DNA of 64,000 nucleotides from Akebia trifoliata (Eukaryota > Streptophyta > Magnoliopsida > Ranunculales > Lardizabalaceae): contig CM030716.1 of the NCBI GenBank assembly GCA_017979445.1, positions 12,747,611-12,811,610 on the forward strand, written 5' to 3'. Below are positions 14,191 to 39,034 of this stretch, in pieces. The notes beneath the pieces are model-generated. The model was not told the DNA's origin. It worked only from the letters and a program-made list of their open reading frames with translations, and made no database searches. The stretch's first letter is position 1. Each line of letters starts with the position of its first letter. The translations under genes were made by a program, and so were the position numbers.

Positions 14191-14644
14191 AGGCTTGTTC
14201 TAGCAACTACTATTTTTTTACCATCATATAAGCTATGGTGTTTCTACTCAACACGACGGCAACTACATTAGCCTTTCTCAGGTGATACTCAAGGGTAAAG
14301 TCGTAATCTTTAAAATATTTCATCCAATGTCGTTGTCTCATATTTAATTTTCACTACAAGAATATGTACTTGAGGCTTTTATGAGTGGAGAATACTTCAA
14401 ACTTCTTCCCGTATAGGTAATGTTTTCAAATGCATAGTGCGAACACTATAACGACTAATTCAAGATCATGAACGAGGTAATTCTTCTCATGGTTCTTCAA
14501 TGTCCTAGACGCATATGCCATTACCTTCCCAAACTGCATCAACACGGTTCCTAAACCAATCTCGGATGCATCAATAAAGATCGTCAAGCCCTCACTTAGA
14601 ATCAGAGATACTAAAATTGGAGCAGTTGTCAATCTCTTTTTCAA
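14191..14644 (-). pseudogene. RNase H domain of Tekay-like pol
   Basis: On the minus strand 14644-14426 reads [20 protein letters not shown], then [40 protein letters not shown]. This matches gypsy RNase H, with the first catalytic Asp in 'DAS' and the Glu in 'DLEL'. Further on, in another frame, QRHWMKYFKDYDFTLEYHLR then KANVVAVVLSR marks the tail of the domain, where the usual 'ADALSR' has lost its Asp. Several stops separate the pieces. Confidence 0.8.
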
Positions 14645-14695
14645 TTCCTGAAATACAGTCTCATACTTGTCATCCCACTCAAATCGAACGTTATT

Positions 14696-15460: not shown

Positions 15461-16215
15461 CTTTGAATTCCCTAACTACCTATACAATATCCACTACTGT
15501 CTTTATATCTGATAATCTCAAAATTCTCAATTGTTTGTATAGAGAACTATCTTTTCTGTATCTAGATCCTTGAATTTTGACCTTTGGATACTTCGATCTC
15601 CTAAAAATAATTGGTCTCGTAAAAAAATCAACATAGGCATGGTTCTGTACTAATCAATATATCCCCAACAAATCTAGTATCATGAGATCAGTAATCCATT
15701 CATGGCCCTTTACTTTAATTATATAGTCTCGACATAATTTCTGGGCTATCTGATGGTTTCCAATGGGGTAGATAATTTCATTATTTGACCCGTGTCAGTA
15801 ATTTCTAACTTTAGTAAATGTGCAATCTCAATATAAATATATGCTCTAGAGGAGTCATTAAAGAATAAAACTTGAATTCTTAACATTATAACTACAAATC
15901 GTGCCTTCCAAAACTTCATCAGAAATAGGTACCTCCTCTTGGGTCAATGGTCTAATCTAGAACCTGTCTCGTCTTTATTGCGATTTGGCTCTGCCTCGTC
16001 CAATTCTCTTGCGTGTGTATCAACAGCAAGGCATTTATCAGCATATGGCTAAAGTCATTCTTATGAAAGCATTAATTACTATTTTAACTAGAAATTTAGT
16101 AATGAACACCATTTTCATTACTAACAGAACGAACCTAAAATCCTATCTTAGTCTTATTAGGCTCTAGGGACTCTAGACACAGAAGAGCTCGTAGTCTCAA
16201 TATGGAACGACTAAT
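15461..16215 (-). pseudogene. Protease-proximal remnant; gag missing
   Basis: Only about 750 bp separate RT from the primer site, where an intact element would have gag plus protease (about 2 kb or more). A minus-strand run near 15600-15700 (ILDLLGIY, stop, VQNHAYVDFFTRPIIF) loosely resembles the 'DVILGMDWL...HAVIDC' region after the aspartic protease site. The rest is unrecognisable. A deletion of most of gag is inferred. Confidence 0.45.
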
Positions 16216-16229
16216 GAGTTCTAATACCA
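16216..16229 (-). promoter_or_regulatory. Primer binding site, initiator-tRNA-Met type
   Basis: On the minus strand TGGTATTAGAACTC follows the 5' LTR end by two bases. It differs from the usual plant iMet primer site (TGGTATCAGAGC) at two positions, as expected for an old copy. Confidence 0.8.
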
Positions 16230-16231
16230 TC

Positions 16232-17706
16232 TGCGGTGCCCCTCCAAATGCTAACACAAATCCCAAAGTCAAATCTCGAGATACTAGGTGGTACCTCAAA
16301 AGTTCGACATGATTTCCTCTATTTATGTTAGCGTTCCATAGAAGTAAAAAACCTAAAAAGCCAATATACAACAAATCTTGTATATAAATATGTGTCAAAA
16401 GCATACAAGATGTAAAAGATGGTAAATTTCAAATAACATAGAGTTAGATCAAAGTACGCAAGGAGTGAGATATACAGGATTACAAAAATTAACCTCTCAC
16501 TAGCATGGACCATTACTTAACCCAAAAACTATATACACCTCTTGGAACGAACAAAATCCTAGTGGAAGTAATCCCAATGCTCTTCGGATAATGGACTCTG
16601 GTCATCGATATGACCCACAAAATAATAATCGCTTGTCGATTTTATAACTGCCTCTCCAACTGTAGACTCTGAAGCTAAAAAAAAAAGGGTGAGTAACAAT
16701 GGTTACCCAGTAGGTCCACAAACAACTCCTATTAATAACCTCACCTCACATGAACGAATAAGCATATTGAATCATTTTAATACATGCAAAGCTTTACAAA
16801 ATAAAATACGATTAACTGGTACATATAGCTAGGGATGAGCAACTAAACAGTTTAAAGATCTAGAAAACATCAATCATTAGTACTTACTATACATTTTCAT
16901 TTTTATACAAATATAATTGACAACATTGAAATAGTATACATGTTTTTCAGTATATAATTCAAAATAGAACAACAAATACATATTACACAATGGTGGAGTA
17001 GTGAAATTAAAGAGTTGAGATTCACGACTAGATTGCTCCTAATCGGGACATGATGTTACAATATGTTACTAACTTTTAGTTCCTGATTTTGCGGTCGATC
17101 GCTGCACTTACTACACTGGTTGACCATTTATCTGGCAGGTTGGCTGTTTGACGTGACCGTAAGCAATGGGTTTCTTTTCGATGTGTTAGAAAGTTTGACT
17201 ACTCTAGATTATTAGTGATCATCGACTAAACATTTTCGTTTATGCTTATCAGGCGTGCATGTGATTCCCAAAATATACAAATTTATTCATATACGATCAC
17301 CTTTTACAATAAAAATTTATTAGTAAAGATAAAAAGGAATGGACCTGAATTCTAGTTGTGATTCCACTCTCATATGCGTCTCATATCACATATGAGCTTG
17401 GTTGTTCCTACCGCATATCCTAGGATAGTACATTACTCCGGATGATACGACGCATTATCCCTTCAGGCATTCACAAGCTCTTTAACAGCTCACAAAATAA
17501 CTACATATATATTATTTTTTTAAAACAAAAGAGAAATTAACATTAAAAGGTTCATAATGGATATCCAACTTCCTACTATGCAACAGTTGCCCACCAGCCT
17601 AAAATAAATAATAGACCAAAAACATAATCCAGCTCCTTGCACTAACATAATTTAAATAAATATGCAACCAATATTATTATCCCTAGATATCTCTTCACCA
17701 ACCTAC
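16232..17706 (-). repeat. Tekay-like element 5' LTR, proximal part
   Basis: Aligns with 9362 to about 10850 of the 3' LTR. It is cut at 17706 after ACCAACCTAC by the insertion of element A1; the LTR continues at 39040. Confidence 0.9.
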
Positions 17707-18239
17707 TGTAGACACCCCATTTTTGCATCTGCCCAATTCGACAATTCGTCAGCCGACTGTTGTGGATTCCTAATGATTAGCATAAAAGAACTCGAAGGTT
17801 TGTGAGTGCTGCTTCATTCCTTCTGTTTCTAGTCTTTTCATCCCCCCTACTCATTACGAATCGACATAGAAATTTACGCACGCTTAGGATCGCTACACCT
17901 TACACCTGATTTAGCAAACACGTATGTTTAGGTTCGCTACACAGTTCGACAACTTAGATACTTCGCTACACTATGAAAATATAACTTTAAAACTTAGAAA
18001 TACTTACACAGTGACTGAAAGAAACCTCATGCTAAAATTCAAAAAAAATCTGTAAAAATTCATCAAAATGACGAAAATACCCCTCATAAATTTTGGACCT
18101 CCAAAAAATCTCGAAAGTACCTCCATTGCACTCAGAATGTGATTTCAAGTCTAACGGGATCTAAATCGATGAAAACATAGAGATTCAAGAAAAATCGTCA
18201 AATATCGTAAAAATGACCAAAACTCCCATTAACATCCAA

Positions 18240-19135
18240 CTCTAACATAGAGACCTTGATCCCTAGGAAAATAAAATTCAAATAAAAAATTAGATCAAAT
18301 AAAATTCAAATTGAAAATTAAACTAAAATTTAACTAAGATCCAATTAAAATCCAAAATTTAAAATCAATTTAAAATCGTAAAATCAAATTAAATTCAATT
18401 AAAATACAAAATAAAAATTATATTTAAATTAAAAATCAAGAAACCGATTAAAAATACAAAATCAAAATCAAAATAAACAAATTGAAAATCAAATTAAAAA
18501 TCATTCAACCAATCAAAATGCAAAATTGAATTTTAAAATCAATCAACCAAATCGACCAATTAAAATACATTCGATCAAATCAAAATCTAATTAATCAACC
18601 AATTAAAATACAAAATCAAAATCAAATTAAAATTGAATCAACCAAATCAAATTTTAAAATTAAATTGAAATATAAAATCAAAATCAAAATTTAAATATCA
18701 AACTTAAATATCAAATTAAAATATCGACAAAAATCAATCGAAATTCAATTGAAAATCAAATTGAAAATCATTCGAATCAATCAAATCGATCAACCAATCA
18801 AAATAAATTCAAAATCAAATTAAAATTAAATCAATCAAATAAAATTTTAAAATCAAATTGAAATTCAAAATCAAATCATAATAAAAAAAAGTCAAATTAA
18901 AATTCAATTGATTAAGCAAAGTGAAAATTAAAATCCATCAAAATTTTAAATCAAAATCCAATCCATCGATTAATATTGAAATTAAAATCTAATTAACCAA
19001 TTAAAATTGATCAGTCAAATTCAAAACTAAAATCGACTAATCGAATTCAAAATTAAATCAATCAACCAAAAAAAATAAAATCCACTTGATCAAATTGAAA
19101 TCCAAATTTGATTGAATTAAAATCGAGTTCCAACC
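18240..19135. repeat. Low-complexity AAATCAA-type tract in the A1 LTR
   Basis: About 900 bp of imperfect iterations of short words such as AAAATCAAATTAAAATTCAA and CAATCAACCAA, extremely C/G-poor. The inverted counterpart in A2 lies at about 47560-47990 and is much shorter, so the tract length varies between copies. Confidence 0.8.
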
Positions 19136-19978
19136 GACCAATCAATTTAATGGTCTATGAAATATCATTAAGGCGAATAGCGTGGGATCACCACTCCCCA
19201 TTCCCCAAAAATATATAAAAATAAAAATAAAAAAGATAAAATACATGGACACACATTTTCTTCTCCAACTCTCTCTTCCCCATGTTTTCCATCTCCCTCT
19301 CTCCAACTTCTCATAACTACCCATGTCCTCTACCATCACTCCCATTTTTTCATCTCCCATGTTTGATCGTAGAACCACCATAAAAGAGGATCAAAGAAAT
19401 CATTAAAGGGGAGAAAAAAATGTTTTTGAGACCACCCTCAAAAAAATAACAACATTTTTTTCACCATTAAACCTACAACCTTCTTCTTCTTTCTAAAAAA
19501 AAAATCACACATTCTTCTTTATTAATGTCCTCAAATCCTCTCTCCCTCTCTATTTATCATAAAAAAAATATCAGCTATAGCCTCACCTTCAGTAACGTCT
19601 TCTTCGTTACCCTCAAAGAAAAAAAATTGATTTTGGAGAAAGATTCACACATCAAACTCGCAAGATCACGACACTACTCATAAGTTATTTTAAATTTTTG
19701 TTGAATGAATCTAAGCATCCAAAATCATTCGACAAAGGTAATTTTTCTTTTTTTATTTCATTTATTTATTCTTGACTTCATAATTTTTTATGTATCCGAT
19801 TGGATTCGTCGATTTTTTAGGTGTACGTGATACTAATGATAATTTTTTAATTTTCTAAAATATTGATGGATCAACCAATTAATTATTAATATTATTGGAT
19901 CGATTTTCTCATTTTGTAATATTAATGGATCAATTTGTTAATTTTTACTAAATGTTTGGGCTAATTCATTAAGTTTGA

Positions 19979-21070
19979 CGCACGTGATGATTTTGAAAAA
20001 TCAAGATTTTCTTTATCAAAATTATTGAGTTTACTCACTGATTTTGGGTACATTAGAAATTTGAATCGATTTATTTTCTATAAAATGGATATATGAGTTA
20101 ATTCAATAATTTTACCGCACGTGGTGATTTTGAAAAATCAAAATTTCCTTCATCAAAATTATTGAGTTGACTCACTGATTTTATGTACATTAGAAATTTG
20201 AATCGATTTATTTTCTATAAAATGAATATGTGAGTTAATTCAATGATTTTGCCGCACGTGACAATTTTGAAAAATCAAGATTTCCTTAATCAAAATTATT
20301 GAGTTGACTTACTGATTTTGGCTACATTAGAAATTTGAATCGATTTGTTTTCTATAAAATAGATATGTGAGTTAATTCAATGATTTTGCTGCACGTGGCG
20401 ATTTTAGAAAATCAAAATTTCCTTAATCAAAATTATTGAGTTGACTTACTGATTTTAGGTACATTATAAATTTGAATCGATTTGTTTTCTATAAAATGAA
20501 TATGTGAGTTAATTCAATGATTTTGCTGCACGTGACGATTTTGAAAAATCAAGATTTTCTTTATCAAAATTATTGAGTTAACTCACTGGTTTTGGGTACA
20601 TTAGAAATTTGAATCGATTTATTTTCTATAAAATGGATATGTGAGTTAATTCACTGATTTTGTGTACATTAGAAATTCCAAATCAAAACTTTCTATGAAA
20701 TGGGAGTCAACTCACTGATTTTTTGTGCGCATTGGAAATTCCAAGTAGAGATTTTTTATAAAATTGGGCATGTGAGTCGACTCATTGATTTTAATACACG
20801 TGGCATTTCAAAAATCAAGATTTATTTGATAAAAAATTTATGGATTAACTCACTGATTTTAATACACGTGGCAATTCGAAAATCGAATTTCTTTGATTAA
20901 TAATTTGTGAGTTAACTCGCTGATTTTAAGATGCACGTGACAATTCAAAAATTGAATTTCTTTGGTTATTAATGTGTGGGTTGACTCATTGATTTTGGGA
21001 CGCACGTGGCGATTCAGAAATCAAATTTCTTTGATAAAATGTCGTCACGTGGCAATTCAAAAAATCGAAT
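19979..21070 (+). repeat. 137-bp tandem array with CACGTG cores in A1 5' LTR
   Basis: Units begin with (C/T)GCACGTG at about 19979, 20116, 20253, 20390 and 20527, a period of 137 bp. Each unit holds a CACGTG core, a GATTTTGAAAAATCA inverted repeat, GAGTTGACTCACTGATTTT and TTCTATAAAATGGATATGTG. From about 20660 the array continues as shorter units of roughly 60-70 bp that keep CACGTGGCA/CACGTGACA cores (about 20796, 20863, 20934, 21002 and 21045). CACGTG is the G-box and ACGTGGC the ABRE-type core bound by plant bZIP and bHLH factors. Confidence 0.85.
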
Positions 21071-21591
21071 TTCTTTAATAAAATGTCGTCAATGAGCCAA
21101 TTTACTAATGTTGTATATGTGGTATTGATAATCTATTTCACACTATTCAAATTGTGACCGAATTGATCCATTAATTTTTGGTGCCACGTAAGCCTTATTA
21201 AATCGTAGGATTCCTTTTATGCGAAATTCGAGAATCTATGTAATTATCTTAACTATAAGATTCGTTTGGCAAACCAGACATAAACTGATGATGATGATTG
21301 GACCATGGTCTTGACCCTAGTCTTATCCCGTTGACCATAGGTTAGTTTTGGATCGTAGTAGAGACCGATCATCTCGATCGAACGGATTCAGTGCCTAACA
21401 CATTCCGAAACTCGTAACCTGACCCTTTACCCATCTCTCTGATCCGTGGACCGACCCATATCCATTTGGAGTTAATTTTGGTTCCTAGACATAAACTAGG
21501 TGGCGACTCCTTATTCTTTTAAAATTCCCGAGATACGTAGATCGGACCCCTGTCCACTATTTAGCGGACGGCCGGGTCGAGGCAATTTCAG

Positions 21592-21605
21592 TGACGACTC
21601 CACTG
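21592..21605 (+). promoter_or_regulatory. A1 primer binding site, tRNA-Arg type
   Basis: TGACGACTCCACTG lies one base after the LTR end. It is two changes away from TGGCGACTCCGCTG, the complement of the 3' end of plant tRNA-Arg, which the related B1 copy keeps exactly. Confidence 0.75.
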
Positions 21606-23096
21606 GGGAATTTGGGGTCAAACTTAACCCGATCCAAGACTATCCTTAGGTTGACTTTTTCCTCGAGTCAATCCAGTTAACTCAATGAGACTCTTAGATT
21701 AGATTAGATTTTATCCTTTCTTTCATTGGCATGTGATTAGATATATTTAATTGTTTATCTCTGTTGATTTATATGATGATTGGATGTATTTAATTTATAT
21801 AGATGGATATTCGCGAAAACACCCCGGGCGCACTTTGTCCTTTTGCACACACTCACGAGCATGCATACTAATATTTGCATCATGTCATCTCCTTATAAAC
21901 CAAGTAACCAGATTTAAGCTAACCTGGTTCTTTCGGGATACGGGGGACGCCCGTGAAAGCTACAACTTCAATACAATGCCTTCGGGTATATCAAACTGGA
22001 ACACCACATACTGCTTGACCAGGTAAAACTGGGATAGTATATCGGTGTTTCGGGCTGAAGTAACCTAAGCTTTGTCATAATCTAGTCTCAATCATATAGT
22101 AAGCCTAGAACATAGGTACGGTCCCACTAGGTCACGACTTGAATCTACCATAAGTGCTCCCGGGTTGCCTTTCTTTAATCTAACTAAAAGGTAAGTGGGT
22201 GGACTGGTCCACACCACTCAAATTGAACCCGCAATACTGGTCCAACCCAATAACATAACTGATCAAACATACCGATCAATGTCTATTTAAACTAGTTAGC
22301 CTAATTGGTAAATAGATCTCATAGATCAAAACATGGACCGATTAGACTAATTGGCTTAAAAATAGTAGATGAAGTGATTCAAGTAGAATATTCAGATCCA
22401 TTGGGTCGAATCGGCCCAAACTCAAATGGGTACATAGTCCCAAATTTTTATTGGCCAATTTAATTCAATGGACTAAATATTTTATAATCAACAAGGTTGG
22501 GATTAGTAGAAAATATATTAAAGACTGTATCGACTAGCACAACCTAGATCTTATTCTTAGAAGGTCGTACAACCCTTAATCATGGTTAAATTTTCTAAGA
22601 TTCCTAATCAATCAACAAATCATCTTCATGTCGTTTCTTGCTTAGAATGTTTTATCGGTTAGAGACTTTGAATTTAAGGGGTTAGTTTAATAAACGCTAT
22701 CAACAGGGACCTTTAGTTATAATTTGATAAAAAAAAAATTATTCTAAGGTCTGCAACAAATACTTCACTTTTGATATCATTGCTTCTAAGCTTAAGCATC
22801 CGCTATCTAGTTGGAGTCGTAAGTCCAGTCAATTAAAACGTATGTCAGTACCAAGCCAACAATCAGAAATGGCTTCAGAATCTCTCAACATTGCCTAGTT
22901 GTTCTCTGAATATCACAGTGCCTCAATTCTACCTGTTAAAAAGTGATGTCCTGAGTCCTCAGTCTATACTCAAACCTGTTGTAGGTACTTGTCTTTTATT
23001 TTTCATGAGTCATGTGATTCAGTTTGAGCTTAGTTTTTTTTCCATTCCTGTTGAGTCGAGTTAGTTTGACAAGTTTGCAATGGTGTTTGTCATCCC
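21606..23096 (+). other. A1 untranslated leader region
   Basis: No open reading frame of note. At 21905-22070 it holds a block with GGGTATATCAAACTGG and CCCGTGAAAGCTACAACTTC, also found, duplicated, in the leaders of B1 and B2. A GTTAGTTTAATAAACG tract and an ACATTGCCTAGTTGTTCTCT block near 22860-22900 precede the pol remnants, as in B2 near 58320-58360. Confidence 0.6.
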
Positions 23097-24010
23097 ATTT
23101 GAATAAAAGAAATTTTTAAATACCCCGAGCGCATTAACGAATTAACTAATAATCTTACTTTAGGAGAAGATTCTCTAATAAGGAATCCACTTCTGAATCA
23201 ATAAATTATTTGAACAAGAAGGCAAAGGTCAAGTCATTGACCTCGAAGCAAAAAAATAATTCCTAAGAAATTCATATTGGAACTAACTTATCCTCAAAGG
23301 AACACGAGGAGATGATGAATCTATTCAAAAAAATTCAAAAGACTTATTCGCATGGTCCTATGAGGATATGTAGGGTAAGCTTGGGTGTTGTCCAACACAA
23401 GATGGATATTTGCCCTTTATAAAACCAGAATGGAATCACATAATTAGAGGATAAGTTATGAAATATATCAACATTGAATTTCTCAAAATAGCTAGACACC
23501 CAGAATGGATTACTATTGAGGCAGCCATCGTCATGAAAAGGTATGAGACACATCGAGATCGATTCGAGAAATTATCATCCACACCCTCGACATGTTAAAC
23601 TTCAACTCAATTTTCTTGCAGACTACTCAGGGTTCTATGTTATGTGGCGTGAAAGGAAGTTTTTGAAATGAAAAGTTCATCCCTAAAAGTATGAATAAAA
23701 AAATCAATCGTCAGAAGTAAATTTGATTTATCATCATAAATCATTTGTGTTTTGATAAGAAAGTGAAGATGCGGGACATGCAAGTCGAAGATTTAGCCTT
23801 CAAAGAAAATCGAGCAGTGTCTCAAATCTAAAAAAAGAAAATTGTAAATCCAATAGGGAAGGTCCTTTCATCACCAAGATAAAATTGTTTGGAAAAGTTG
23901 TCAGACGTCAAATATCGTAACGACACCAAATCGAGCGGTACTATATTTAAGGAGGCCATCTTTAGTCGAACCAATTTTTTGATTACCCGTCTTAATATCT
24001 CCTTCTTCAG
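23097..24010 (+). pseudogene. A1 pol remnants (Tat-like)
   Basis: Fragments in changing frames: INELTNNLTL near 23140, then AWSYEDM at about 23346, INIEFLKIARHPEWITIEA near 23470-23525, and the integrase tail QVEDLAFKENRAVSQI near 23785 with SSGTIFKEAIF near 23930-23960. The 'WSYEDM' string is typical just before the Tat-lineage reverse transcriptase. Between it and the integrase tail only about 430 bp are left, so RT, RNase H and the integrase core are essentially deleted. The internal piece 'FLKIARHPEW' differs from what B1 and B2 have at this point. Confidence 0.65.
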
Positions 24011-25264: not shown

Positions 25265-25396
25265 GAGATTATTTCTCAGATTTTGCTCAGATACTACCGA
25301 GAGTTTTCTTGGATTTTGCTCAGACATCGCTAAGGGTTTTCTCGGATTTTGCTCAGATACCGCCGAGGATTTTTTCAGATTTTGCTCAGACGTCGC
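25265..25396 (+). repeat. Start of the GCTCAGAT minisatellite in A1
   Basis: Four units of about 35-37 bp of the type TTTTGCTCAGATACCGCCGA plus GGGTTTTCTCGGA. The array is cut at 25396 by the B1 LTR. B1 carries the same minisatellite inverted and longer. Confidence 0.8.
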
Positions 25397-25984
25397 TGAA
25401 AGCGCCCTCGATCCGGGGGGTGCGCGGATCCGCTTTTGACCCTTGAGGTTTAGGAGTCGCCACCTAGTTATTACGGTCTAGGAACCTAACTTTGACTCTA
25501 AAAGACAAATAAACTAATCTACGAAAGAAAAATACGGGTCTGGGGATCACGTTACGGGGTTGGAAGGTGTTAGGCACCAACTCCGCAAGGCCAATGCTGG
25601 TCTCTATTTATCCCAAATAAACTAACAACAAAACCTAGATAAAAAAAATAATAAAAATTTTACCTTCGATACGCAAAGATCTTATTCCCTCAAATCTGAC
25701 AAAAACTGCTCCTTGTACCGTACTCCTTGCTTTGTTCTATCTCCAGATCTAATTTCTGATCTCCGAGGCAATGTATCTCTTTCTTGGATCTGGATTCTTT
25801 GAATTTGTTATGGATTTTGGGGTGTTTTTGAAGGGCTTCTAAGTATTTTTCAAGCTAAAATTGAGGTATGGGTGTTAGGTAAGGAGTTGGGGCTCCAAAA
25901 CTAGGGTTTATAGGAGGCTAGGGAGACTTTTTGACCTACTTCTCTTAGGGTTTATGATTTGATACGAAAATAGGGTGTGAGGAA

Positions 25985-25996
25985 CCTTATTTATAG
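25985..25996 (-). promoter_or_regulatory. TATA box of the B LTR promoter (B1 3' LTR copy)
   Basis: CTATAAATAAGG on the minus strand. The same motif as CTATAAATAGGGG stands at the matching place in the other B LTRs, always between the TTGAC array and the R-U5 part. Confidence 0.7.
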
Positions 25997-26186
25997 ATTT
26001 TTTTAAAGGTTAATTTAGATAGAATTTGTTTTTAATTAGAATTCTTTTAGTTAGAGTTGTATTTTAGTTAAAATTGTTTTAGGTAGAGTTATATTTTAAT
26101 TAGAATTATTTTAGGTAGAGTTATATTTTACTTGGAACTCTAGTAAATAGAGTTATTATTTAATTAGAACTCTATTAGGATTTTGA

Positions 26187-26342
26187 CTTTTGGTCTTATT
26201 TGATTGACTTTAATATTTTGACTTTAGTCTTAATTGCTTGACTTTAAGATTTTGACTTTAGTCTTAATTGATTGACTTTAATTTTGACTTTAGTCTTACT
26301 TGATTGACTTTAATACCTTGACTTTAGTCTTTCTTGATTGAC
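26187..26342 (-). repeat. TTGAC-rich tandem array (B1 3' LTR copy)
   Basis: About five units of roughly 30 bp: TTGACTTTAGTCTTAATTGA then TTGACTTTAA. Each unit supplies two TTGACT words, the core of the W-box bound by WRKY factors. Equivalent arrays: 35655-35791, 55567-55741, 50872-51137 (inverted) and 62202-62371 (inverted). Unit number differs between copies. Confidence 0.75.
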
Positions 26343-27129
26343 TTTAATTTTTTCGAGAACCCCCCTCTATTATATATTTAATTCTTTGGACCCCTAAATG
26401 GAGGGGTCCTTGAAGAAATATCTTGGCAACCCTCAACAATTTTGCCTGAGAGCTTAATTGATTGATTTTTTTAGTTCAAATTTTTTAATTAATTTTATTA
26501 ATGTTTCACTTTAATTATTTAATATTTTATTTATTAATTTCAAAATTTTTAATTATGAAAATTATGAAATTACCATTTTACCCTCGGAGAGGACTTTTCG
26601 TGTTTTAAGTCGGTTTTTGATGTTCTAAGATGTTTTAGAATCAATTTTTCTTAAGGAATTCAATGAAAATATTGGTTTGTGTCGTTTATAAAAATTTTTG
26701 TGTGAAATGGTCGTGAACTTTATGAGGGGCATTTTCATAATTTTGTCAAATTCTGTGAAAATTGGCGAAATGATTTATTTGGTTTCGATTTGTTATTTTA
26801 TGTGTTCGAATGGGTTTTCCTAAGCGTAATGTAGGCTCTAGGGATATTTTGATGTTAGGGGTATTTGGTAATTTGATCATTTTTTAGTGATTTTTATCGT
26901 GAAACTTCTTTTTGTCTGTAAAATGATGATTTCTATGTTTCTGGAGTCGTATTTTCCTAGCGTAACGTTGTTTATAAGGTTTTGTCAGTTCGAGATACCT
27001 CATCCGGATTTCTAAAACATATCTGGTAATAAAATAAAGCAATGGAAATAACATCCATCATTGGGAATCATTGCGATCGGGTTGACGAGTTGATTAATCA
27101 GGCAGATGCAAAAATGGGGTGTCTACAGA

Positions 27130-27142
27130 TGCCCCTCTTTGG
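27130..27142 (-). promoter_or_regulatory. B1 polypurine tract
   Basis: AAAGAGGGGCATC on the minus strand immediately before the 3' LTR. Identical tract at 61550-61562 in B2 and nearly the same at about 48541-48553 in A2. Confidence 0.8.
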
Positions 27143-27424
27143 CAGAGGGTTGAAGCAAACTAGATAGCAAATCTATTTTGGTAGATAGTGCGATATCCGA
27201 ATGTAAAAGCTAGTGACAGTTCATTTTGTAGCCTGATTTAGCAATTCGTCGGTGTGTTCGGATCCTTGAGGGTAAAGCTCTCCCCGAATTAAAAGGTTGC
27301 TAGGTCATCGAGTGAGAACTCTCACTGATAGTTTCAGATCCTTGAATTTTAGAAAATTCTCCTTAACTGATGTAACAACTGTGCAAGTGTGTGACTTAAA
27401 ATCTATGATAAATTTTAAAAAGTT

Positions 27425-28275
27425 TATGTTGGAACTGAGTAAAATCTGAGCATAAAATGAATATAAATTAAGCATAAACTAAGCATAATCTGAGCATAAA
27501 TTGAGCATAATCTGAGCATAATATGAGCATAGACTGAGCATAAACTGAGCATAATTTGAATATAAACTGAGCATAATTCGGAGAAAACCCTCGGCGGCAT
27601 CTAAGCATAATTCAGAGAAAACCCTCGGCGGTAACTAAGCATAATTCCGAGAAAACCCTCGGCGGCATAATTCTGAGAAAACCCTCGGCGGCATCTAAGC
27701 ATAATTCAGAGAAAACCCTCGGCGGTAACTGAGCATAATTTTGAGAAAACTCTTGGCGGCATCTGAGCATAATTCCGAGAAAACCCCCGGCGACATCTGA
27801 GCATAATTCTGAGAAAACCCTCGACGGCATCTGAGCATAATTCCGAGAAAATCCTCAGTGGTAACTGAGCATAATTCTGAGAAAACCCTCGACGGCATCT
27901 GAGCATAGTTCCGAGAAAATCCTCGACGACATCTGAGCATAATTTCGAGAAAACCCTCGACGGTAACTAAGCATAATTCCGAGAAAGCCCTCGGCGGCAT
28001 CTAAGCATAATTCCGAGAAAACCCTCGACGGCATCTGAGCATAATTCCGAGAAAATCCTCGGCGGTAACTGAGCATAAATTCGAGAAAGCCCTCGGTGTC
28101 ATCTGAGCATAGTTCCGAGAAAACCCTAGGCGGTGGCATCTGAACATAATTCCGAGAAAACCCTCTACGGTATCTGGGCATAATTCCCAGAAAACCCTCG
28201 ACGGTATCTGGGTATAATTCCGAGAAAGCCCTCAACGGCATCTAAGCATAATTCCGAGAAAACCCTCAGCGATAT
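27425..28275 (-). repeat. 35-bp minisatellite in B1 with self-complementary units
   Basis: About 21 units of roughly 35 bp from 27567 to 28275, of the form GCATAATTCCGAGAAAACCC plus TCGGCGGCATCTGA, alternating with a 'GGTAACTGA' variant. Upstream (27425-27566) are simpler GAGCATAA(T/A)CT iterations from which it may have grown. Each unit contains CCGAGAAAACCCTCGG, a 5-bp stem around a 6-base loop. Because 35 is not a multiple of 3, long open frames appear with a 35-residue period; these are repeat artefacts, not genes. Confidence 0.9.
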
Positions 28276-28984
28276 CTGGCTGAGTAAAATTGAGACTACA
28301 GGAATAAGTCTGGGAAAGAACGATTGAAAATGAATCTAGAAAACAGGGGTTGAATCTGGAAATGAATAGATCTGAGAAAGAATGAATGCCCTATCTCCTG
28401 TGTGAGATCCAAAATACTTTTTTTTGAACCTCAAGGTTTTATCCAAAAGTTTTATGAATTTAAAACCTGAGTTTTTATTTCTTTTGAACCTCAAGAGTTT
28501 TTTGAAAAACTCTTATCAAGAGGGTAACCTTAAGTTTGGGGTTCTCATTATCTTTTAGGATTAACATTGTTCAAAAATAAAATGCCCCTAGTTTGACAAT
28601 GAACATGGCATTGAAGATAATTGAACACATCATGCAAAAATTAAAAAAATGCCCCTAGTATAAGGGGGAAAAGTTACATTAAAGAAGAAAGAAAATGCCC
28701 CTTGTATGAAGGTTTGAAGTATTTGATTACCACAAGCGCAATAAAGACTCAACTTTTAATTTTGATTAATTTTATTGAAGGTTTTGAGTTAGGCTCATGA
28801 GAACAAAATTACTTCTTTTCGAGACTCATCATAGAATTCAGCCTTATCTCCCTTGGTTCACTTGGGAAAGTAAAAAATTTAAGATTGATCGTAGACAAGA
28901 TACTTGTGGCTTCCGAGTCTGTGCCTGATTTAAGCTAAGTATTGAACTTGATTACTCGGACTTCTCGGACCGCTCTTAGCTTTT

Positions 28985-29230
28985 AACTCCCCGAAGATTT
29001 TCTTCTATTTTTCTTTGTTGCTCTCACTTTTGCCTAGATTTTTAATCTAGCAAGCTTACTTTAACTTTTGCCTATATCGCCTTTTCAGATTTTTAATCTA
29101 GCGAGCCCCTTTTTTTCTTTGCTCTAATTGTTGCCAAGATTGTCCTTTCGAATTTTCAACCTTGCGAGCTTGTCTTAATTTTTGCTTAAGTCGTCATTTT
29201 CGGGTTTTCAACTTAGCAGGCTTTTTTTAT
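28985..29230 (-). repeat. Degenerate ~60-bp repeats (B1 copy)
   Basis: Three to four units combining TTTTGCCTAGATT..., TTTTTAATCTAGC and GAGCTTG-like words, complement of the array at 24440-24740 in A1. No coding content. Confidence 0.65.
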
Positions 29231-29489
29231 TTTTTTATGGAATTGCTGTCTGATCATGTTTTGTATTTTCCCTGACTTTTCACACGGTACTTAGGAGGAC
29301 TTTTATAGGTAAGCTTAGGACTGGATATAAAAAGAAAGGAATTTTGAGGCTCAAAAACCCAAATGCCCCTTGTGTGGCATTTCCTTTTAAATTGTTTTCT
29401 TTTTCCTTAAATTGTCTTCCCCATTTTGGATTTCTTTTTCTTTTGAATTTTTTTTCTTTTTAGATTTTTTCATTGTCGGGGAATCTATT

Positions 29490-29605
29490 TTTTTATTTTG
29501 ATGTGGTCGAGCCTGAAGTAACTTCTCAGGTTGCCTACGTACCTCAGAATCTTGGGATCAGACCAAAACGTAGTTCGAATCTTCCCTCCCCTGGGTTAAG
29601 TGATC
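29490..29605 (-). other. Conserved non-coding block after pol (B1 copy)
   Basis: Contains GATGTGGTCGAGCCTGAAGT, TCTCAGGTTGCCTACGTACC and CCTCCCCTGGGTTAAGTGAT, the complement of the A1 block at 24050-24170. Confidence 0.75.
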
Positions 29606-29685
29606 GGGCTGAGAAAGAAAATGCATAATTTTTCTTTTTGAAAAAGCTGCAAAGGGGTTGAGAAAGGATATGTTGAACTGGGTAA

Positions 29686-30860
29686 CTAGGTAATATGAGG
29701 ATTGATTCGGCCAAAGATGGTCTCCTTAAATGTAGTACCGTTTGATTTGGTCAAGGTTGGTTGGTTCTGGTAATTCGATTCCATTATGATCTTGAAGCCT
29801 GATAGTTTTTTCTGATAATATTTCCTTGATGATGAACGGCCCTCCCCAATTTGGTTTGAACTCCCTCTAGAGTCAAAGATAGGTGCCCGATTCTCTTTGA
29901 GTACTAAATCCCCAACTTGCAAGTAACGGGCCTTGATTTTTTTGTCAAACGCACGGGCGACTCTTCTTTGATAAGCTTACACGTGATACAGAACTCTAAG
30001 TTATTTTTTTTTCAATCTGGTTTAGCTCTTCATACCCAATGACGAGCCTAGTTTGTTTTTAGCAATTGACTTTCCATCAAGACCTTGAGATACGGGATTT
30101 TTATTTCAACTGGTAAGACTGCTTTCAGATAATATACTATAGAGTAGGGAATAGTTCCAATAGAAGACTGTATTTGAAGTACTACACCCCCATAGTGTGA
30201 ATGGTAGCTTTTCTGACTAATCTTGGTATGATTAACAAATTTTCACGATAATTATCGTGAAACCCTTACGAGCTGCTTCAACCGCTCCATTAATCTGAGG
30301 ACGGTAGGGGGATGATCTGTGATGCCGGATCTTGAACAGAATAATGATTTAAGCTTTGAAGTACGACCCATTATCAGGGATCAGTTCAAATGGTACCCCC
30401 ATATCGACTGATAATATGTGATTTGCAACTCAATATGTAGTAAGGATAACACTGATACTATTGATATTTTCATCTCATCAAGTGAGTATCTATTCCGTGT
30501 TGAACAACACCCAAGCTTGCACCTAACACATCCTCATCGGATCACGTGAATAAGTCTTTTGAAATTTCTAAGTAAATTCATTATCCCCTCATATTTCTCT
30601 AGGGATAGGATGGTTTCTATTTGAATCTCTTTAGGAATTATTTTTGTTCCAAGGTCAATGACCTTTGCTTCCTTGATTAAACATTGAGCCTGACTCTTAT
30701 CTTCTTGCTCAGGAAAGAAATATATCCTTGAAGCCAGATTAGTAATTAATTCATTAATGCGCTCGAGGTATTCAGAAATTTCCTTTATCCAATCAAATTC
30801 AGATGGGGCGACAAATACCTCTATGACTCAACAGACTAACTCAACTCAACAGAAAAAAAG
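29686..30860 (-). pseudogene. B1 pol remnants: pre-RT part joined to integrase
   Basis: Reading the minus strand: from 30860 APSEFDWIKEISEYLERINE ... EDKSQAQCLI, then a CKLGCCSTRNRYSL-like stretch near 30520 that in frame corresponds to the 'EDMPGASLGVVQHGID' region before RT. Next, after a short A/T-rich join near 30440, comes the integrase core (...FELIPDNGSYFKA near 30400-30350, 'PYRPQING' near 30300) and the integrase tail QVGDLVLKENRAPIFD at 29922-29870. RT and RNase H are absent. Frames shift often. B2 has the same join. Confidence 0.75.
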
Positions 30861-32640
30861 AAAAAGTCGACTCGAAAAGAATATACGACCTTGCTGAAAA
30901 AAAGGGACTTGAACTAACCCAAATGACTCATGAAAACTCAAGACTACCCACAACGTACTTGATTAGGACTGAGGACTGAGACATTGCTTACAACCGGCAT
31001 GACTGGGGCACTGTGATCTTCAAAAAACAACTAGGCGATGTTGAGAAATTTTAAGGTCATTTCTGACTGTTGACTTGATATTGACGTTTACTCTAACTAA
31101 CCGGATTTACAACCCTAGCTAGACGATGGACGATTGAGCTTAGATACAATGATAACCTAGTAACCCCATCAAATGTGGATTATCAATTCCACTATTACCC
31201 CCTTGATAATATTTTAAATGAATCCTGAGATTTTATTGAATTATGTACACCAATCCATTAAACAATTCATCCATAAAAGGAAAATAATTTTATTGCACTC
31301 TTGAAAATTATTGAAAAATAATGTTTTTATTGAATAATAATTTTCACAAACATACTTTAATAATTTTTCATGCAAAAATAGATATTTTGTAAATCATTTT
31401 TTTCTTTGAAAAATATTTTTCTTCCTTTTCTTTTTTTGGAAAATATTTTCTTTTAGAAAACTTTTTTGGAAAAGCATTTCTCTTCTGGAAAACATTTTTC
31501 TTCTTTTAAAATAGGTTAAAAATCCAAATTAGAAAAAAGTTTGAATTTCATTTTGATTCAAATGGCTCGGCCCATAATGATCGTTGGATCGAAATGGACT
31601 GGGTCAAGTTTAAAATGGATTTTTTATTGGGTTGGTGTACCCAGTGATACTGTAATTTCAAATCAGGTTAAACAACAAAAAATTTATCCTTAAGGACGAA
31701 CCCGTACATTCTTGATCTCATCATTCATATACATTCATCTCATCATTCACATGCATTCTGATCTCATCATTCACATACATTCATCTCATCGTTCACATGC
31801 GTTCTGACCTTATCATTCACATACATTCATCATTCACAAGGTTCCATTCAATAAACAACCCGAGAACACCCACGATAAGTTCGAGTCGTGACCTACAGGG
31901 GAGGTTTCTAGACTCTAAGCTTACTACGTGCAATGCATTTTATCTGGCCACCCTTGCCCAAATACACCTATATACCTCTCGATACGTGGTGACTTGGTTT
32001 GATATACCGTATAGGTGATAATTTAAAACCTCAACTCACTTCTCTGAAGTAAAAAACAGTCAGTTTGATCTCCAGTTGAGAGGTGGCGCACGATGCTGAG
32101 CAAGGACCCACTTAAATACCTCTCGTCTAGAATAGGCGTAGTCTATCTCCCTTGTACAGTAGGGTACAGCGGGGCAAGATCTCGCTTAGGCACCAATTTT
32201 AACTAAGAAGTGCAATTGATATACTTGGATTATCTTTTATATACCTACGGGTATGAGTCAAGAGTTGTAGCTTTCATAAATGGTTTGGCATCCCACGAGT
32301 GGACCGACCACGTACTAGTACTACGTTGGCGATCGGGACATGTGACTGTGTGGCTCACAATAGGTCAAAGGCTCAGGTCGCTATAACCTAGGTGCATCAA
32401 TATACCTTTCAAAGTCACCTGATCAGATAGTACTGATATCCCAGTTTGATATACCCTAAGGTACGTGACTGGAGTTGTGGTTTTCATGAATGACGTCACA
32501 TCTCCAAAGAGACCGGGCCACGCACTAGTGCCACGTTGGCTATGTGGGACGTGTATACGTGCAAAATAATAAACGTGCATGTGGTGTGTGCAGAACAGGG
32601 TGGGGTGTGCCCGGGGCTTTTATTCAAATAAATGAGCCTA
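30861..32640 (-). other. B1 leader with duplicated GTATATCAAACTG block
   Basis: No gene recognised. At 32230-32575 two related ~170-bp blocks follow each other, each with a CACTAGTGC/ACTAGTACG word, a GGGATG.C/GGAGATGTGACGTCATTCAT word, ACAACTC and GGTATAT. The same pair is at 56878-57250 in B2; A1 has one block (21905-22070). CATTCACATACATTCATCTC iterations lie at 31720-31830. Conservation across families suggests a role in the RNA leader. Confidence 0.6.
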
Positions 32641-34905
32641 TGGGCCATATCAAACCATTACAACATGGAAATATTAATCCCAATAATACACAAACCAATC
32701 ACATCTCATCACATCAATACTAGGATCAAAATAAGCACACATATCTCAATTTATAGCATGTTTGATAAGCAATCTCAATAGGACTAATAATTAGAATCAA
32801 TCGAAACAAGCACATAGTTTTTTTTTAGTCCAATATTTTTTATTAATTCAATCAAAAATCGCTTTGGTGACCCTAAACAAATTGGGATTTCAAAACATAT
32901 TAGATTAAGGATGAAAAGATAATGGTTGGACCAAGATGTGGTTTTTATTTTTTATTTTTTATTTTATTTTATTTTATTTTTTTAAAAACAATTTGATTTT
33001 ATTGAAAACCATATTTTTTATATACCCATTATTTGTGATCTAACAAGCATCAAAATTTAGTGATTTAAATTAGAGTATAGTGATATGGATACTTGGTGTG
33101 AAAATAAGGAACCTAGAAAAAAAGTAATTAAACAAATAAAACGATCTACTTTTGCATGAAACCCTTTCAATCAAAACCAAGAGATTAGGTTAGAGATTCA
33201 ATTCTCCAATTAGACTTTGGTTGCAAAAATTCCTTTTTTTTTTTTTTTTGACATTCTGATTTTTGGTCGAACATGTATTTAACACCAAAAATGGAGCATA
33301 AATTCATACTTTCAATGAAATTCGGAGTCTGTACATCGGGAACCAGCGAAATATGTTCTTGAATATCTTACTGGAATTGAACTTGAGTAAAAAAAAAACC
33401 AAAACAGAAAATTACTATTATTGGGAGACTGTAGAAGCGTCCAAAAATTTTGATTCTGTCGTTTAAGATTACATCATGATCGGACGGTTCGACTCTTGTC
33501 CGATCTTTTAATCTCTCCCTTCCTCTTCAACTCCCAAACACATAAAAATCAGCATTTTTTTTAATAATCTGAACGAAAAAGAAGAAAAAGAAGCTCCTAA
33601 AACTTCCGTAAAAAATTTATTTAGGAAGGAAAATCAATCAAGATCGGATCACTTCGAACAATACACAATGATTCATGTCTCAGACTCACGAGATCTAATC
33701 TATCTTTTTGAATTAACGTCTAAACAGTAGAAATAATTTAGATTTTCGAAAAAAAAAACAACATGGACTACATTTTTGAAAGGGTTTTTAGTTTTCTTTT
33801 TTTTTTAATCAAGGTTCAACCATTTCACTTCGAGCCAACAATTTCTTATTGATCTGAACCATCAAAAATCTGTGATTCTTCGACAAGAGAATTTACCAGA
33901 GAAATCAAAGATAGAGATCTTTTGGATTGATGAATATGAGTCAAGCGTTTCCAACCAATCGCATCAACCCGTGATATTTCCCTATCGCATATTTTCCTCT
34001 GGACTGCCATTGAAATTCGTCTTGGAAGGTTGTTTTAACGATGATGACAATGGGATTAGGGATCGACTGTCATGGCGATGAAGATGAAGAAGGAAGGAAA
34101 GAAGGTAGAGTGAGAGAGAGAGAGAGATCAGCAAAAGACGTTTCTCTTGGCTGTTGTTTTTCGTTTTTTAAAGAATTGGAGAAGGAGATAAAAACAGAAA
34201 AGCTATTTTTTGCTAATGGCACACCACATGTAAAAAATAAAATTTACGATTTTTTTTCTGATTTTTTTTTCTTGGAATTCTCTCCTCATCACGAACAACA
34301 TTAAAAAAAATATTTTTTTTGTTTCTTAGTGCATTACTCACAAAGAATTTATTTTCACAACTCGTCACATATGCCTAGTAACGCACTAAAAAAAATTCAT
34401 CCAAGATTTTTTTTTAAAAAAAAATCATAACCCTCATCTGAACCACCATCATTCCGTCCTCAATTTATGTCAATTTGAATCTTTCATTATTTAGGATCAT
34501 CCCAAAACGACCCTACATTGAATCATAAAAAAGGATACTCCAAAATGACCTATCCAAAATCAATCTAAATAATGCCAAGAAAAAATAATACGATCAAAAA
34601 AAATATAAAATAAACAAAATAATGAGAATGGTTCAACAACCATTTTTTTCACACTGTTATGCTCTTGTCATCCTGCATTATTTAGGGTCATTCTGAATGA
34701 TCATAGATTAAACCATAAAAATTTGCAAAAAAAAAGTATTCGGAATCCAAACAAATGATCCATAATTAAGCCAAAAAGAATGATAGAAAAATAAATAAAT
34801 AAATAAATAAACAAATAACTAAAAATAAAATAAAATTAAAAAAAATGTCCTACTAGCAATGCATCCCATACTTGGGGTTTTTCAAATTTGATCCTCAATG
34901 GTCTC
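32641..34905 (-). other. B1 5' internal region, variable part
   Basis: AT-rich sequence with T tracts (33231-33250) and a (GA)n run at 34110-34127. There is no recognisable gag. The part nearest the primer site (34330-34900) matches B2 51997-52680, whereas 32900-34300 does not match B2 52700-54780, so the two copies hold different material here. Confidence 0.5.
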
Positions 34906-34919
34906 CAGCGGAGTCGCCA
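34906..34919 (-). promoter_or_regulatory. B1 primer binding site, tRNA-Arg type
   Basis: TGGCGACTCCGCTG on the minus strand, one base from the 5' LTR. It is an exact complement of the last bases of plant tRNA-Arg including CCA as I recall that tRNA. Confidence 0.8.
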
Positions 34920-34920
34920 C

Positions 34921-36570
34921 TGAAAGCGCCATCGATCCGCGGGGTGCGCGGATCCGCTTTGACCCTTGAGGTTTGGGAGTCACCACCTAGTTATTACGGT
35001 CTAGGAACCTAACTTTGACTCTAAAAGATAAATAAACTAATTCGAAAGAAAAATACGGGTCCGAGGATCACGTTACGGGGTTGGAAGGTGTTAGGCACCA
35101 ACTCCGCCAAGCCAATGCCGGTCTCTACTTATCCCAAATAAGCTAACAACAAAACCTAGATAAGAAAAATAACAAAAATTTTACCTTCGATATGCAAAGA
35201 TCGTATTCCCTCAGATCTGACAAAAACTGCTCCTTGTACCGTACTCCTTGCTTTGTTCTATCTCCGGATCTAATTTCTGATCTCCGAGGCAAGGTATCTC
35301 TTTCTTGGATCTGGATTCTTCGAATTTGTTATAGATTTTGGGATGTTTTTGAAGGGCTTCTAAGTATTTTTCAAGCTAAAATTGAGGCATGGGTGTTAGG
35401 TAAGGAGTTGGGGCTCCAAAACTAAGGTTTATGATTTGATACGAAAATAGGGTGTGAGGACCTCTATTTATAGATTTTTTTAAGGGTTGATTTAGATAGA
35501 ATTAGTGTTTAATTAGAATTCTTTTAGTTAGAGTTGTATTTTAGTTAAAATTATTTTAGGTAGAGTTGTATTTTAATTAGAATTGTTTTAGGTAGAACTA
35601 TATTTTAGTTAGAACTCTATTAAATAAAGTTATTATTTAACTAGAACTCTATTAGGATTTTGACTTTTGGTCTTATTTGATTGACTTTAAGATTTTGACT
35701 TTAGTCTTAATTGATTGACTTTAATTTTGACTTTAGTCTTACTTGATAGACTTTAATACCTTGACTTTAGTCTTTCTTAATTGACTTTAATCTTTTGGAG
35801 AACCCCCCTCTATTATATATTTAATTCTTTGGACCCCCAACTGGAGGGGTCCTTGAAGAAATATCTTGGCAACTCTCAACAATTTTGCCAGAGAGCTTAA
35901 TTGATCGATTTTTTTAGTTCAAAATTTTAAATTAATTTCATTAATGTTTCAATTTAATTATTTAATATTTTATTTATTAATTTCAAAAATTGTAATTATG
36001 AAAATTATGAAATTATCATTTTGCCCTCGAAGAGGACTTTTCGTGTTTTAAGTCGGTTTTTGATGTTTTAGGATGTTTTAGAATCAATTTTTCGTAAGGA
36101 ATTCAATGAAAATATTGGTTTGTGTCATTTATGAAATTTTTTGTGTGAAATAGTCGTGAACTTTATGAGGAGCATTTTCATAATTTTGTCAAATTCTGTG
36201 AAAATTAGCGAAATGATTTATTTGGTTTCGATTTGTTATTTTATGTGTTTAAATGAGTTTTTCTAAGCGTAATGTAGGCTCTAGGGATATTTTGATGTTA
36301 GGGGTATTTTGGTAATTTGATTATTTTTTAGTGATTTTTATCGTGAAACTTATTTTTGTTTGCAAAATGATGATTTCTATGTTTCTGGAGTCGTATTTTC
36401 CTAGCGTAGTGTGTTTTCTAAGGTTTTGTCAGTTCGAGATACCTCATCCAGATTTCTAAAACATATCTGGTAACAAAATAAAGTAATGGAAATAACATCC
36501 ATCATTGAGAATCATTGCGATCGGGTTGATGAGTTGATTAATGAGGCGGATGCAAAAATGGGGTGTCTAT
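34921..36570 (-). repeat. B1 5' LTR, outer end clipped
   Basis: Starts TGAAAGCGCC on the plus strand and ends ...GGGGTGTCTA at 36570, lacking the final CA. TATA motif at 35463-35472 (CTATAAATAGAGG on the minus strand), TTGAC array at 35655-35791. It abuts the middle of A1's 3' LTR. Confidence 0.9.
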
Positions 36571-39034
36571 CACTCTCTCTTCCCATGTCCTCCATCTCCC
36601 TCTCTCCAACTTCTCATAATTACCCATGTCCTCCACTATCACTCTCATTTCTCTCTCTCTCTCTCATATTTGATGGTAGAACCACCATAAAAGAGGATCA
36701 AAAGAACCATTGAAGGGGAGAAAAAACGTTTTTGAGGCCACCCTATAAAAAAAATAACAATATTTTTTTCACATTAAACCTACAACCTTCTTCTTCCTTT
36801 TAAAAAAAAATCACACCTTCTCAATTAATGTCCGCAACTCCTCTCTCCCTCTCTATTTACCATTAAAATAATCAGCTATAGTCTCACCTCCATTAACGTC
36901 TTCTTCGTTACCCTCAAAGAAAAAAAATTGATTTTGAAGAAAGATTCACACATCAAACTCGCAAGATCACGGCACTACTCATAAGCTATTTCGAGTTTTT
37001 GTTGAAGGAATCTAAGCATTCGAAATCATTCGACAAAGGTAATTTTTCTTTTTTTTTTATTTCATTTATTTATTCTTAACTTCATAATTTTTTATGTATC
37101 CGAATGGATTCGTCGATTTTTTAGGTGTACATGGCATTAATAGCAATTTTTAAATTTTCTGAAATATTGATGGATCAACCAATTGATTATTAATATTATC
37201 GGATCAATTTTCTTATTTTGTAATATTAATGGATCAATTCGTTGATTTTGCGAAATGTATGGGCTAATTCATTAAGTTTGGCGCATGTGACGATTTTGAA
37301 AAATCAAGATTTTCTTGATCAAAATATTAAGTCTACTCACTGATTTTGGATACATTAGAAATTTGAATCGATTTGTTTTCTATAAAATGGATATGTGAGT
37401 TAATTCAATGATTTTATCGTACGTGGCGATTTTGGAAAAATCAAAATTTTCTTAATCAAAATTATTGAGTTGACTCACTGATTTTAGGTAGATTAGAAGT
37501 TTTAATCGATTTGTTTTCTATAAAATGAATATGTGAGTTAATTCAATGATCTTGTCGCACATGACGATTTTGAAAAATCAAGATTTCCTTGATCAAAATT
37601 ATTGAGTTGACTCACTGGTTTTGAGTACATTAGAAATTTAAATTGATTTATTTTCTATAAAATAGATATGTGAGTTAATTCAATAATTTTGGAGCATCTG
37701 ACGATTATGAAAAATCAAAATTTCCTTGATCAAAATTGTTGAGTTGACTCATTGATTGTGATTACATTAAAATTTTGAATCAATTTGTTTTTTATAAAAT
37801 GGATATGTGGGTTAATTTAATGATTTTTCCGCACGTAGCGATTTTAAAAAATCAAAATTTTCTTGATCAACATTATTGAGTCTACTCACGGATTTTGGGT
37901 ACATTAGAAATTTGAATCGATTTTTGTTTTCTATAAAATGGATAAGTGAGTTGATTCAATAATTTTAACGTACGTGGCGATTTTGAAAAATCAAAATTTC
38001 CTTGATCAAAATGATTGAGTTGATTAACTGATTTTGGTTACATTAGAAATTTGAATCGATTTTTTTTCTCTATAAAATGGATATGTGAGCCAACTCACTG
38101 ATTTTGTATACATTGAAAATTCCAAATCAAAACTTTCTATGAAATGGGAGTCAACTCACTAATTTTTTGTGTGCATTGGAAATTTCAAATAGAGATTTTC
38201 TATAAAATTGGACATGTGAGTCAACTCATTGATTTTAATACACGTGGCATTTCAAAAATCAAGATTTATTTGATAAAAAATTTATGGATTAACTCACTGA
38301 TTTTAATATACGTGGCAATTCGAAAATCGAATTTCTTTAATTAATAATTTGTGAGTTAACTCGCTGATTTTAGGATGCACGTGACAATTCAAAAATTGAA
38401 TTTCTTTGGTTCTAAATGTGTGGGTTGACTCATTGATTTTGGGACGTACGTGGCGATTCAGAAATCAAATTTCTTTGATAAAATGTCGTCACGTGGCAAT
38501 TCAAAAAATCGAATTTCTTTAATAAAATATCGTCAATGAGCCAATTCATTAATGTTCTATACGTGGCATTGAGAATCGATTTCATACTATTCAAAATGTA
38601 ACCGAATTGATCCATTAATTTTTGGTACCACGAAAGCCTTATTAAATCGTGGGATTCCTTTTATGCGAAATTCGAGAATCTATGTAGTTATCTTAACCAT
38701 AAAATTTATTTGGCAAACCAGACATAAACTGATGATGATGATTGGACCATGGTCTTGACCCTAGTCTTATCCCGTTGGCCATAGGTTAGTTTTAGATCGT
38801 AGTAGAGATCGATCATCTCGATCGGACGGGTTCGGTGCCTAACACCTTCCGAAACTCATAACCTGACCCCTTATCCATCTCTCAGATCCGTGGACCAACC
38901 CATATATATTTGGAGTTAATTTTAGTTCCTAGACCTAAACTAGGTGGCGACTCCCTATTCTTTTAAAATTCCCGAGATACGTAGATCGGACCCTTGTCCG
39001 TTATTTAGCGGACGGTCGGGTCGAGGCGATCTCA
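36571..39034 (+). repeat. A1 3' LTR, 5'-truncated
   Basis: Aligns with 19268-21590 of the 5' LTR: CT-rich segment, then the 137-bp array, then ...GTCGGGTCGAGGCGATCTCA. It lacks the first 1.56 kb. Ends at the CTTAC copy of the target duplication. Confidence 0.9.
37282..38600 (+). repeat. 137-bp tandem array in A1 3' LTR
   Basis: Unit starts at about 37282, 37418, 37556, 37692, 37830 and 37969, so six full units against five in the 5' LTR, then the shorter CACGTGGCA units to about 38580. Several cores have decayed (GTACGTGG, GAGCATCTG, GCACATGA), so this copy keeps fewer exact CACGTG words than the 5' LTR. Confidence 0.85.

Follow-up and report, generated by a model that had tools for sequence, protein, structure and literature searches.

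A common pol deletion in two LTR retrotransposons of Akebia trifoliata points to a non-autonomous lineage

Within a stretch of 64,000 nucleotides of Akebia trifoliata DNA (the window), two LTR retrotransposons, B1 and B2, pass from the stretch preceding the reverse transcriptase (pre-RT) directly into the middle of the integrase. Most probably, at a rough probability of 0.87, both are insertions of one non-autonomous lineage in which the deletion was ancestral and which was copied by the proteins of an intact relative. A pol segment of approximately 1.9 kb, which begins at the first reverse transcriptase (RT) codons and ends midway through the integrase core, would have been removed by a single deletion in the common ancestor of B1 and B2. 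The RNA of this lineage would have kept the LTR ends, the tRNA primer site and the polypurine tract and would have been packaged, copied and integrated by proteins of the relative, most likely an element similar to H, the host of B2. The deletion came first, followed by the split of the lineages and then by the insertions of B1 and B2. The two copies make up a small and clean case in which these events can be ordered from the sequence alone. Should the pattern recur genome-wide, the origin of RT-less plant gypsy derivatives and their drift away from the mobilising elements would become testable. The term family rests here on two full copies in the window, plus a solo LTR that is unable to show the deletion.

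Elements of the window

Self-BLAST comparison and reading of the LTR ends revealed that old plant LTR retrotransposons are nested within one another in the window (Table 1). A search with Rfam at gathering cut-offs gave no match in the window. B1 and B2 are located 28 kb apart in inverted orientation, and in both of them paired LTRs, a primer site (PBS) adjoining the 5' LTR and a polypurine tract (PPT) adjoining the 3' LTR were found. The target-site duplication (TSD) of B2 is perfect, while its 5' LTR ends with TA, not CA. B2 is interrupted by a solo LTR, which possesses a perfect TSD of its own (GTTCT, 54795-54799 and 56529-56533). H is the element into which B2 inserted. The TSD of C (CCTAC/CTTAC) matches in four of five bases, and the corresponding empty site is present in E at 10847-10851. 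E is presumably chromovirus-like.

The flanks of B1 do not form a matching target-site duplication (GTCGC at 25392-25396, CTCTC at 36573-36577). Since the low-side flank lies within the 3' repeat region of C and the high-side flank about 1.56 kb into the 3' LTR of the same element, C must have lost 1.5 kb or so at the least. Either two B-type insertions may have recombined to give B1, or B1 may have inserted with an accompanying target deletion; the join common to B1 and B2 is unaffected by the mismatch. Ahead of its 3' LTR, B1 contains a 34-bp tandem array of approximately 18 copies (27567-28278). The array of B2 is shorter (33-bp unit, 61036-61210). The middle parts of the 5' internal regions (B1 32647-34092, B2 52784-54799 and 56534-56794) differ in length and did not match each other in the self-comparison.

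Table 1. Positions of the elements and of their features in the window
Feature	Position	Strand	Basis or remarks
Element B1	25397-36572	minus	self-BLAST, reading of LTR ends
B1 3' LTR; 5' LTR; PBS; PPT	25397-27127; 34921-36572; 34902-34919; 27128-27140	minus	
B1 pre-RT stretch (pol relic to RT start)	30460-30860	minus	30674-30485 to P0006 1021-1083, 21/63 identical; rest by DNA alignment to B2
B1 join (RT start/integrase at about 30448/30447) and in-frame stop TGA (30432-30430)	30430-30459	minus	
B1 integrase remnant (second half of catalytic core, C-terminal part)	29729-30447	minus	30424-29729 to P0006 1763-1996, 120/230 identical
Element B2	50252-63198	plus	self-BLAST, reading of LTR ends
B2 LTRs; PBS; PPT	50252-51981 and 61563-63198; 51983-52000; 61550-61562	plus	
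B2 TSD GATAT, left copy	50247-50251		flanks read directly
B2 TSD GATAT, right copy	63199-63203		flanks read directly
B2 pre-RT stretch	58560-58900	plus	58580-58878 to P0006 986-1085, 35/97 identical
B2 join: putative RT start (58901-58924), integrase from 58925, in-frame stop TAA (58940-58942)	58901-58942	plus	
B2 integrase remnant	58925-59650	plus	58957-59650 to P0006 1766-1996, 133/231 identical
B1-subfamily solo LTR within B2	54800-56528	minus	89% identity with either B1 LTR
Element C, split by B1	17707-39034	plus	self-BLAST, reading of LTR ends
C 5' LTR; PBS; remainder of 3' LTR	17707-21590; 21592-21609; 36573-39034	plus	
Pol deletion of C	23262-23538	plus	RT kept to P0006 residue 1127 (23511), integrase-like DNA from 23527; join within about 23511-23538
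Element H, host of B2, integrase; runs off the window end	63204-64000	minus	63999-63251 aligns to P0006 1746-1996
H beyond B2; PPT; LTR start	48540-50251; 48540-48552; 48539	minus	
Element E, RT-bearing but broken	about 9362-17704	minus	Pfam; primer site of TGGTATTAGAAC type read directly

The missing pol block and its join

Compared to an intact pol, about 1.9 kb is absent from B1 and B2, comprising RT, RNase H and the N-terminal part of the integrase. In frameshift-aware alignments to P0006, the 5' part of both copies ends at residue 1083-1085 and the integrase begins at residue 1763-1766. DNA similarity to C and reading of the frame would place the last RT codons of B near residue 1113 and the integrase start near residue 1752; the B-C similarity used here was equalled or surpassed by three of 500 shuffles. 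The motifs WGIDIIG, DNGSHF and NGAVEAANK are situated at P0006 positions 1715, 1779 and 1810, respectively, and we take the missing block to consist of RT, RNase H, the zinc-finger motif of the integrase and its first catalytic Asp.

Of 1144 candidates from a region-limited comparison of the B2 integrase with the protein collection, 493 matched at E<=0.001, and the best 120 of these were listed. Among the matches listed, a Populus alba protein gave the best E-value (49% identity), while the highest identities (68-69%, with 81-83% of the query covered) belonged to two Tasmannia lanceolata proteins and the best Fagus matches reached 61%. A literature search in general terms for Tasmannia together with LTR retrotransposon found nothing. 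The pre-RT motif and the integrase E motif could both be found by pattern in 18 of the best 120 matches, the other 102 being without one of them. The two motifs are 600 to 900 residues apart in 16 of these 18 proteins and 555 and 480 residues apart in the remaining two; in B2 the spacing is approximately 90 residues. A scan of viral contigs for the B2 integrase fragment turned up 59 pattern matches, with no relative among them.

Nine plant pols, taken from the best 120 of 493 matches, were compared to the window by tblastn. RT/RNase H matches were confined to E (14.2-15.4 kb). In B1, B2 and H, only the C-terminal half of the integrase was matched, and C was matched at 23320-23538 (pre-RT and RT start) by four of the nine. 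None of the nine detected RT in B1 or B2. Pfam recognized RVT_1, RT_RNaseH and Integrase_H2C2 in E, no domain in B1 at E<=0.1 and no domain in B2, C, H or the window-end piece at E<=1. Since Pfam misses integrase remnants that are seen by tblastn, its silence on decayed copies carries little weight and tblastn is the stronger test. Frameshift-aware alignment with three pols detected neither gag nor protease in the 5' part of the internal region in B1, B2 or C, the best scores lying within four points of, or below, the reversed-DNA control (one control each).

A MAFFT alignment of B1 (31200-29600, minus strand) and B2 (58150-59860), to which C was added, revealed base-level homology of B1 and B2 that begins in the pre-RT stretch, spans the join and continues in the integrase. 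In this alignment C likewise goes from pre-RT to integrase, though at a different position. The local alignment over the join scored 85, while the maximum in 500 shuffles was 26. Of 198 aligned sites in the approximately 200 bp around the join, 166 are identical (83.8%, K2P 0.19), with similar values on the pre-RT (84.3%) and integrase (82.9%) sides. Both copies reach their first in-frame stop at the same codon, five codons past the join (TAA in B2, TGA in B1), and relative to H they have in common net -10/+1 bp indels within about 50 bp of the join. An extra gap of 15 bp immediately 5' of the join occurs in B1 and is most simply explained by a later loss in this copy. Further downstream, the alignment to P0006 indicates five frameshifts and four stops in the integrase remnant of B1, and one frameshift and five stops in that of B2. 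The assertion of the initial annotation that B1 and B2 carry an identical RT/RNase H deletion was confirmed: base-level alignment of the reversed B1 with B2 gave the same breakpoints, and RT was not encountered elsewhere in either copy by tblastn with the nine plant pols. The short join that it described is indeed the same in both copies, but seems to include about eight codons of the RT start.

One could imagine that B1 and B2 were intact at insertion and that each of them later lost the same stretch at a deletion hot spot. Element C demonstrates that a very similar block can go independently. However, the breakpoints of C are different, as expected of independent events, whereas the joins of B1 and B2 agree at the base level, including the stop codon and the indels. 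Because these lesions are common to both copies and argue against two separate deletions, a hot spot is extremely unlikely. RNA splicing as the source of the deletion also received no support, as no AG directly borders the integrase side in H, the only side of the join to which this observation applies.

Order of events and coding constraint

The K2P divergence between the two LTRs is 0.058 for B1 and 0.099 for B2. The LTRs of B1 and B2 diverge from each other by 0.24-0.26, which is 2.4 to 4.4 times the values within each copy, and B1 and the solo LTR by 0.12. For the internal pieces, B1-B2 values of 0.13-0.31 were determined, with 0.19 at the join. Since the divergence between B1 and B2 exceeds their own LTR-LTR values, the two lineages split before either insertion, when the join was already present. 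Judging from the join, the stop codon and the indels that both have in common and from the LTR divergence, the deletion is older than both insertions, which agrees with the earlier proposal that it preceded amplification. That the family must borrow RT and gag, as had also been stated, is sound reasoning, since gag and protease are likewise undetectable. B1 and B2 were presumably mobilised in trans by means of proteins of a relative.

The different surroundings of B1 and B2, together with the TSD that B2 has of its own, argue against a segmental duplication. On the other hand, the deletion might have arisen in one B copy and have been transferred to the other by gene conversion. The inverted arrangement of the two copies at a distance of 28 kb would suit such a transfer, as would the rather low K2P (0.12) of the segment just 5' of the join. 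Yet, in a comparison of 25 segments of 150 sites over 4 kb, in which K2P ranged from 0.06 to 0.55 and was 0.15-0.25 in 16 segments, the three join segments (0.12, 0.19 and 0.18) were inside this range and the lowest values were found elsewhere. As the join segments are not strikingly low, a recent conversion is disfavored; the transfer would fit only if it were old and is, on the whole, very unlikely. A stretch of approximately 0.8 kb without recognized coding content (B1 31814-32646, B2 56795-57635) shows a K2P of 0.125, as opposed to 0.17-0.31 in the remaining internal pieces that were compared. A packaging signal or an exchange of this segment could account for the low value.

Constraint on the integrase remnant was assessed by counts at codon positions, codons near frameshifts being left out. 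Between B1 and B2, 43, 26 and 34 differences fall on positions 1, 2 and 3 in 193 integrase codons, a distribution that is not significant (chi-square 4.21, 2 d.f.). The comparisons of B1 with H (57/37/74 in 188 codons) and of B2 with H (50/30/84 in 216 codons) both favor position 3, and this excess indicates that the integrase was constrained between H and the B lineage. The dN/dS ratio of B1 and B2 is 0.47 (bootstrap 0.29-0.78). When neutral evolution was simulated with a mutational bias taken from three LTR pairs, the ratio was 0.68 (0.43-1.05), ten of 150 runs being at or below 0.47. These data suggest no clear constraint on the integrase after the split of B1 and B2, although some weak constraint may have acted before insertion.

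In this context it has to be considered whether the B lineage was still coding during its spread, either through an in-frame fusion of the RT start and integrase or through an integrase remnant that was translated and useful. The join is apparently in frame in B2, B1 and also in C, and the dN/dS ratio lies at the lower end of what the neutral simulation gave, but the frame runs into the stop five codons past the join in both B copies, the differences between codon positions are not significant and the catalytic core is incomplete. Such a coding role is therefore improbable. The stop common to B1 and B2 was the reason for discarding the idea of a functional fusion protein of RT and integrase. 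With this stop just past the join and no recognizable gag or protease, the pol remnant of the B lineage was most likely inert.

Candidate partner, known systems and a second deletion

The sequence following the LTR is TGGCGACTCCGCTGGAGA in B1 and TGGCGATTCCACTAGGGA in B2 (14 of 18 bases alike). The primer site of C (TGACGACTCCACTGGGGA) has 15 of 18 bases as in B1, while that of E (TGGTATTAGAAC) is unlike the sites of B1 and B2. The purine tract AAAGAGGGGCATC is identical in B1 and B2 and nearly the same in H (AAAGAGGGGCATT). The LTRs start with TGTAGACACC, with the variants TGATAGACACC at the 5' LTR of B1 and TATAGACACC in H. The H integrase reads across the breakpoint of B and extends some 15-18 bp past it up to the window end. 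No RT-bearing partner for B is seen within the window, whose end H runs off. Applying primer site and LTR termini as criteria (PMC9744471), an H-like element would be the best visible candidate partner, its RT and primer site lying outside the window, and E a poor one. A literature search with nine letters of the primer site returned, among the matches listed, only papers unrelated by title.

B1 and B2 are probably Tat-like plant Ty3/gypsy LTR elements. Many of the listed pols matching the B2 integrase carry PF13456 beside PF17917/PF17919 in their Pfam lists (best 120 of 493, by similarity). We take PF13456 to be an additional RNase H and PF17917/PF17919 to be the native one. In the available text of PMC10508981, the Tat clade is characterized by a dual RNase H, and the dual order is the only one reported in early angiosperms. 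By contrast, B1, B2 and C are devoid of the RT-RNase H block that holds the clade-defining domain, and H leaves the window before that region.

For the Retand elements, the accessible part of PMC11963269 reports ten defective clusters out of 63, one of which lacks RNase H and integrase. Like these, B1 and B2 are amplified elements that lack some of the domains, and tandem arrays between pol and the 3' LTR (in B1 at 27567-28278) are a further similarity. Differences concern the LTRs, which are 1.6-1.7 kb long in B and 3.9 kb in C, compared to 315-1,194 bp given there for Retand, and the region between pol and the 3' LTR, which at about 2.6 kb in B1 (with the 18-copy 34-bp array) and about 1.9 kb in B2 is shorter than the 2.9-6.6 kb of Retand. 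Retand possesses an antisense TRP28 domain, which was not detected in B1, B2 or H: PF04195 gave no match at E<=1 in the antisense frames of their 3' regions, where decay could hide one, and only three sub-cut-off matches, to other families, were obtained. Retand is described there only from eudicots and Liliopsida.

A parallel in terms of mobilisation is offered by the wheat families RLG_WHAM and RLG_Sabrina, proposed as non-autonomous partners of RLG_Wilma in the text seen of PMC9744471. As in B1 and B2, RT is lacking, LTR termini and primer site are kept and trans-mobilisation has been proposed, the wheat families being without both RT and integrase. However, they partly encode GAG, whereas in B1 and B2 gag is undetectable and an RT-bearing partner is not seen in the window. 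Going by these portions of PMC9744471 and PMC11963269, non-autonomous plant gypsy families without RT and integrase are already well described, and the finding on B is ordinary in kind.

The least expected part of the findings is an independent second deletion. As the tblastn match of P0037 in C extends to 23538, the C join is fixed only to about 23511-23538. Position 23527 of C is equivalent to B2 59128, near P0006 residue 1823 (none of 300 shuffles as good), while the similarity of the C integrase-like piece to H is not significant (11 of 300 shuffles). B leaves RT earlier and also re-enters the integrase earlier than C, so that the breakpoints are staggered. Since B and C each keep sequence absent from the other, neither join can be derived from the other. 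On this basis, C lost nearly the same pol block independently of B. Lying beside B1, it provides a natural control for the shared B join. It is conceivable, although rather doubtful, that one Tat-like lineage lost the block from the RT start to mid-integrase at least twice, in B and in C, apparently in frame and each time before spread, the deletion of C being known from one copy. This would indicate a recurrent mechanism, e.g., template switching in reverse transcription, that repeatedly yields and launches RT-less derivatives. The LTRs of C contain arrays in which a 137-bp unit is repeated and then gives way to related 69-bp units (19962-20662 and 37282-38105), and the consensus of the 137-bp unit includes the motif GCACGTG.
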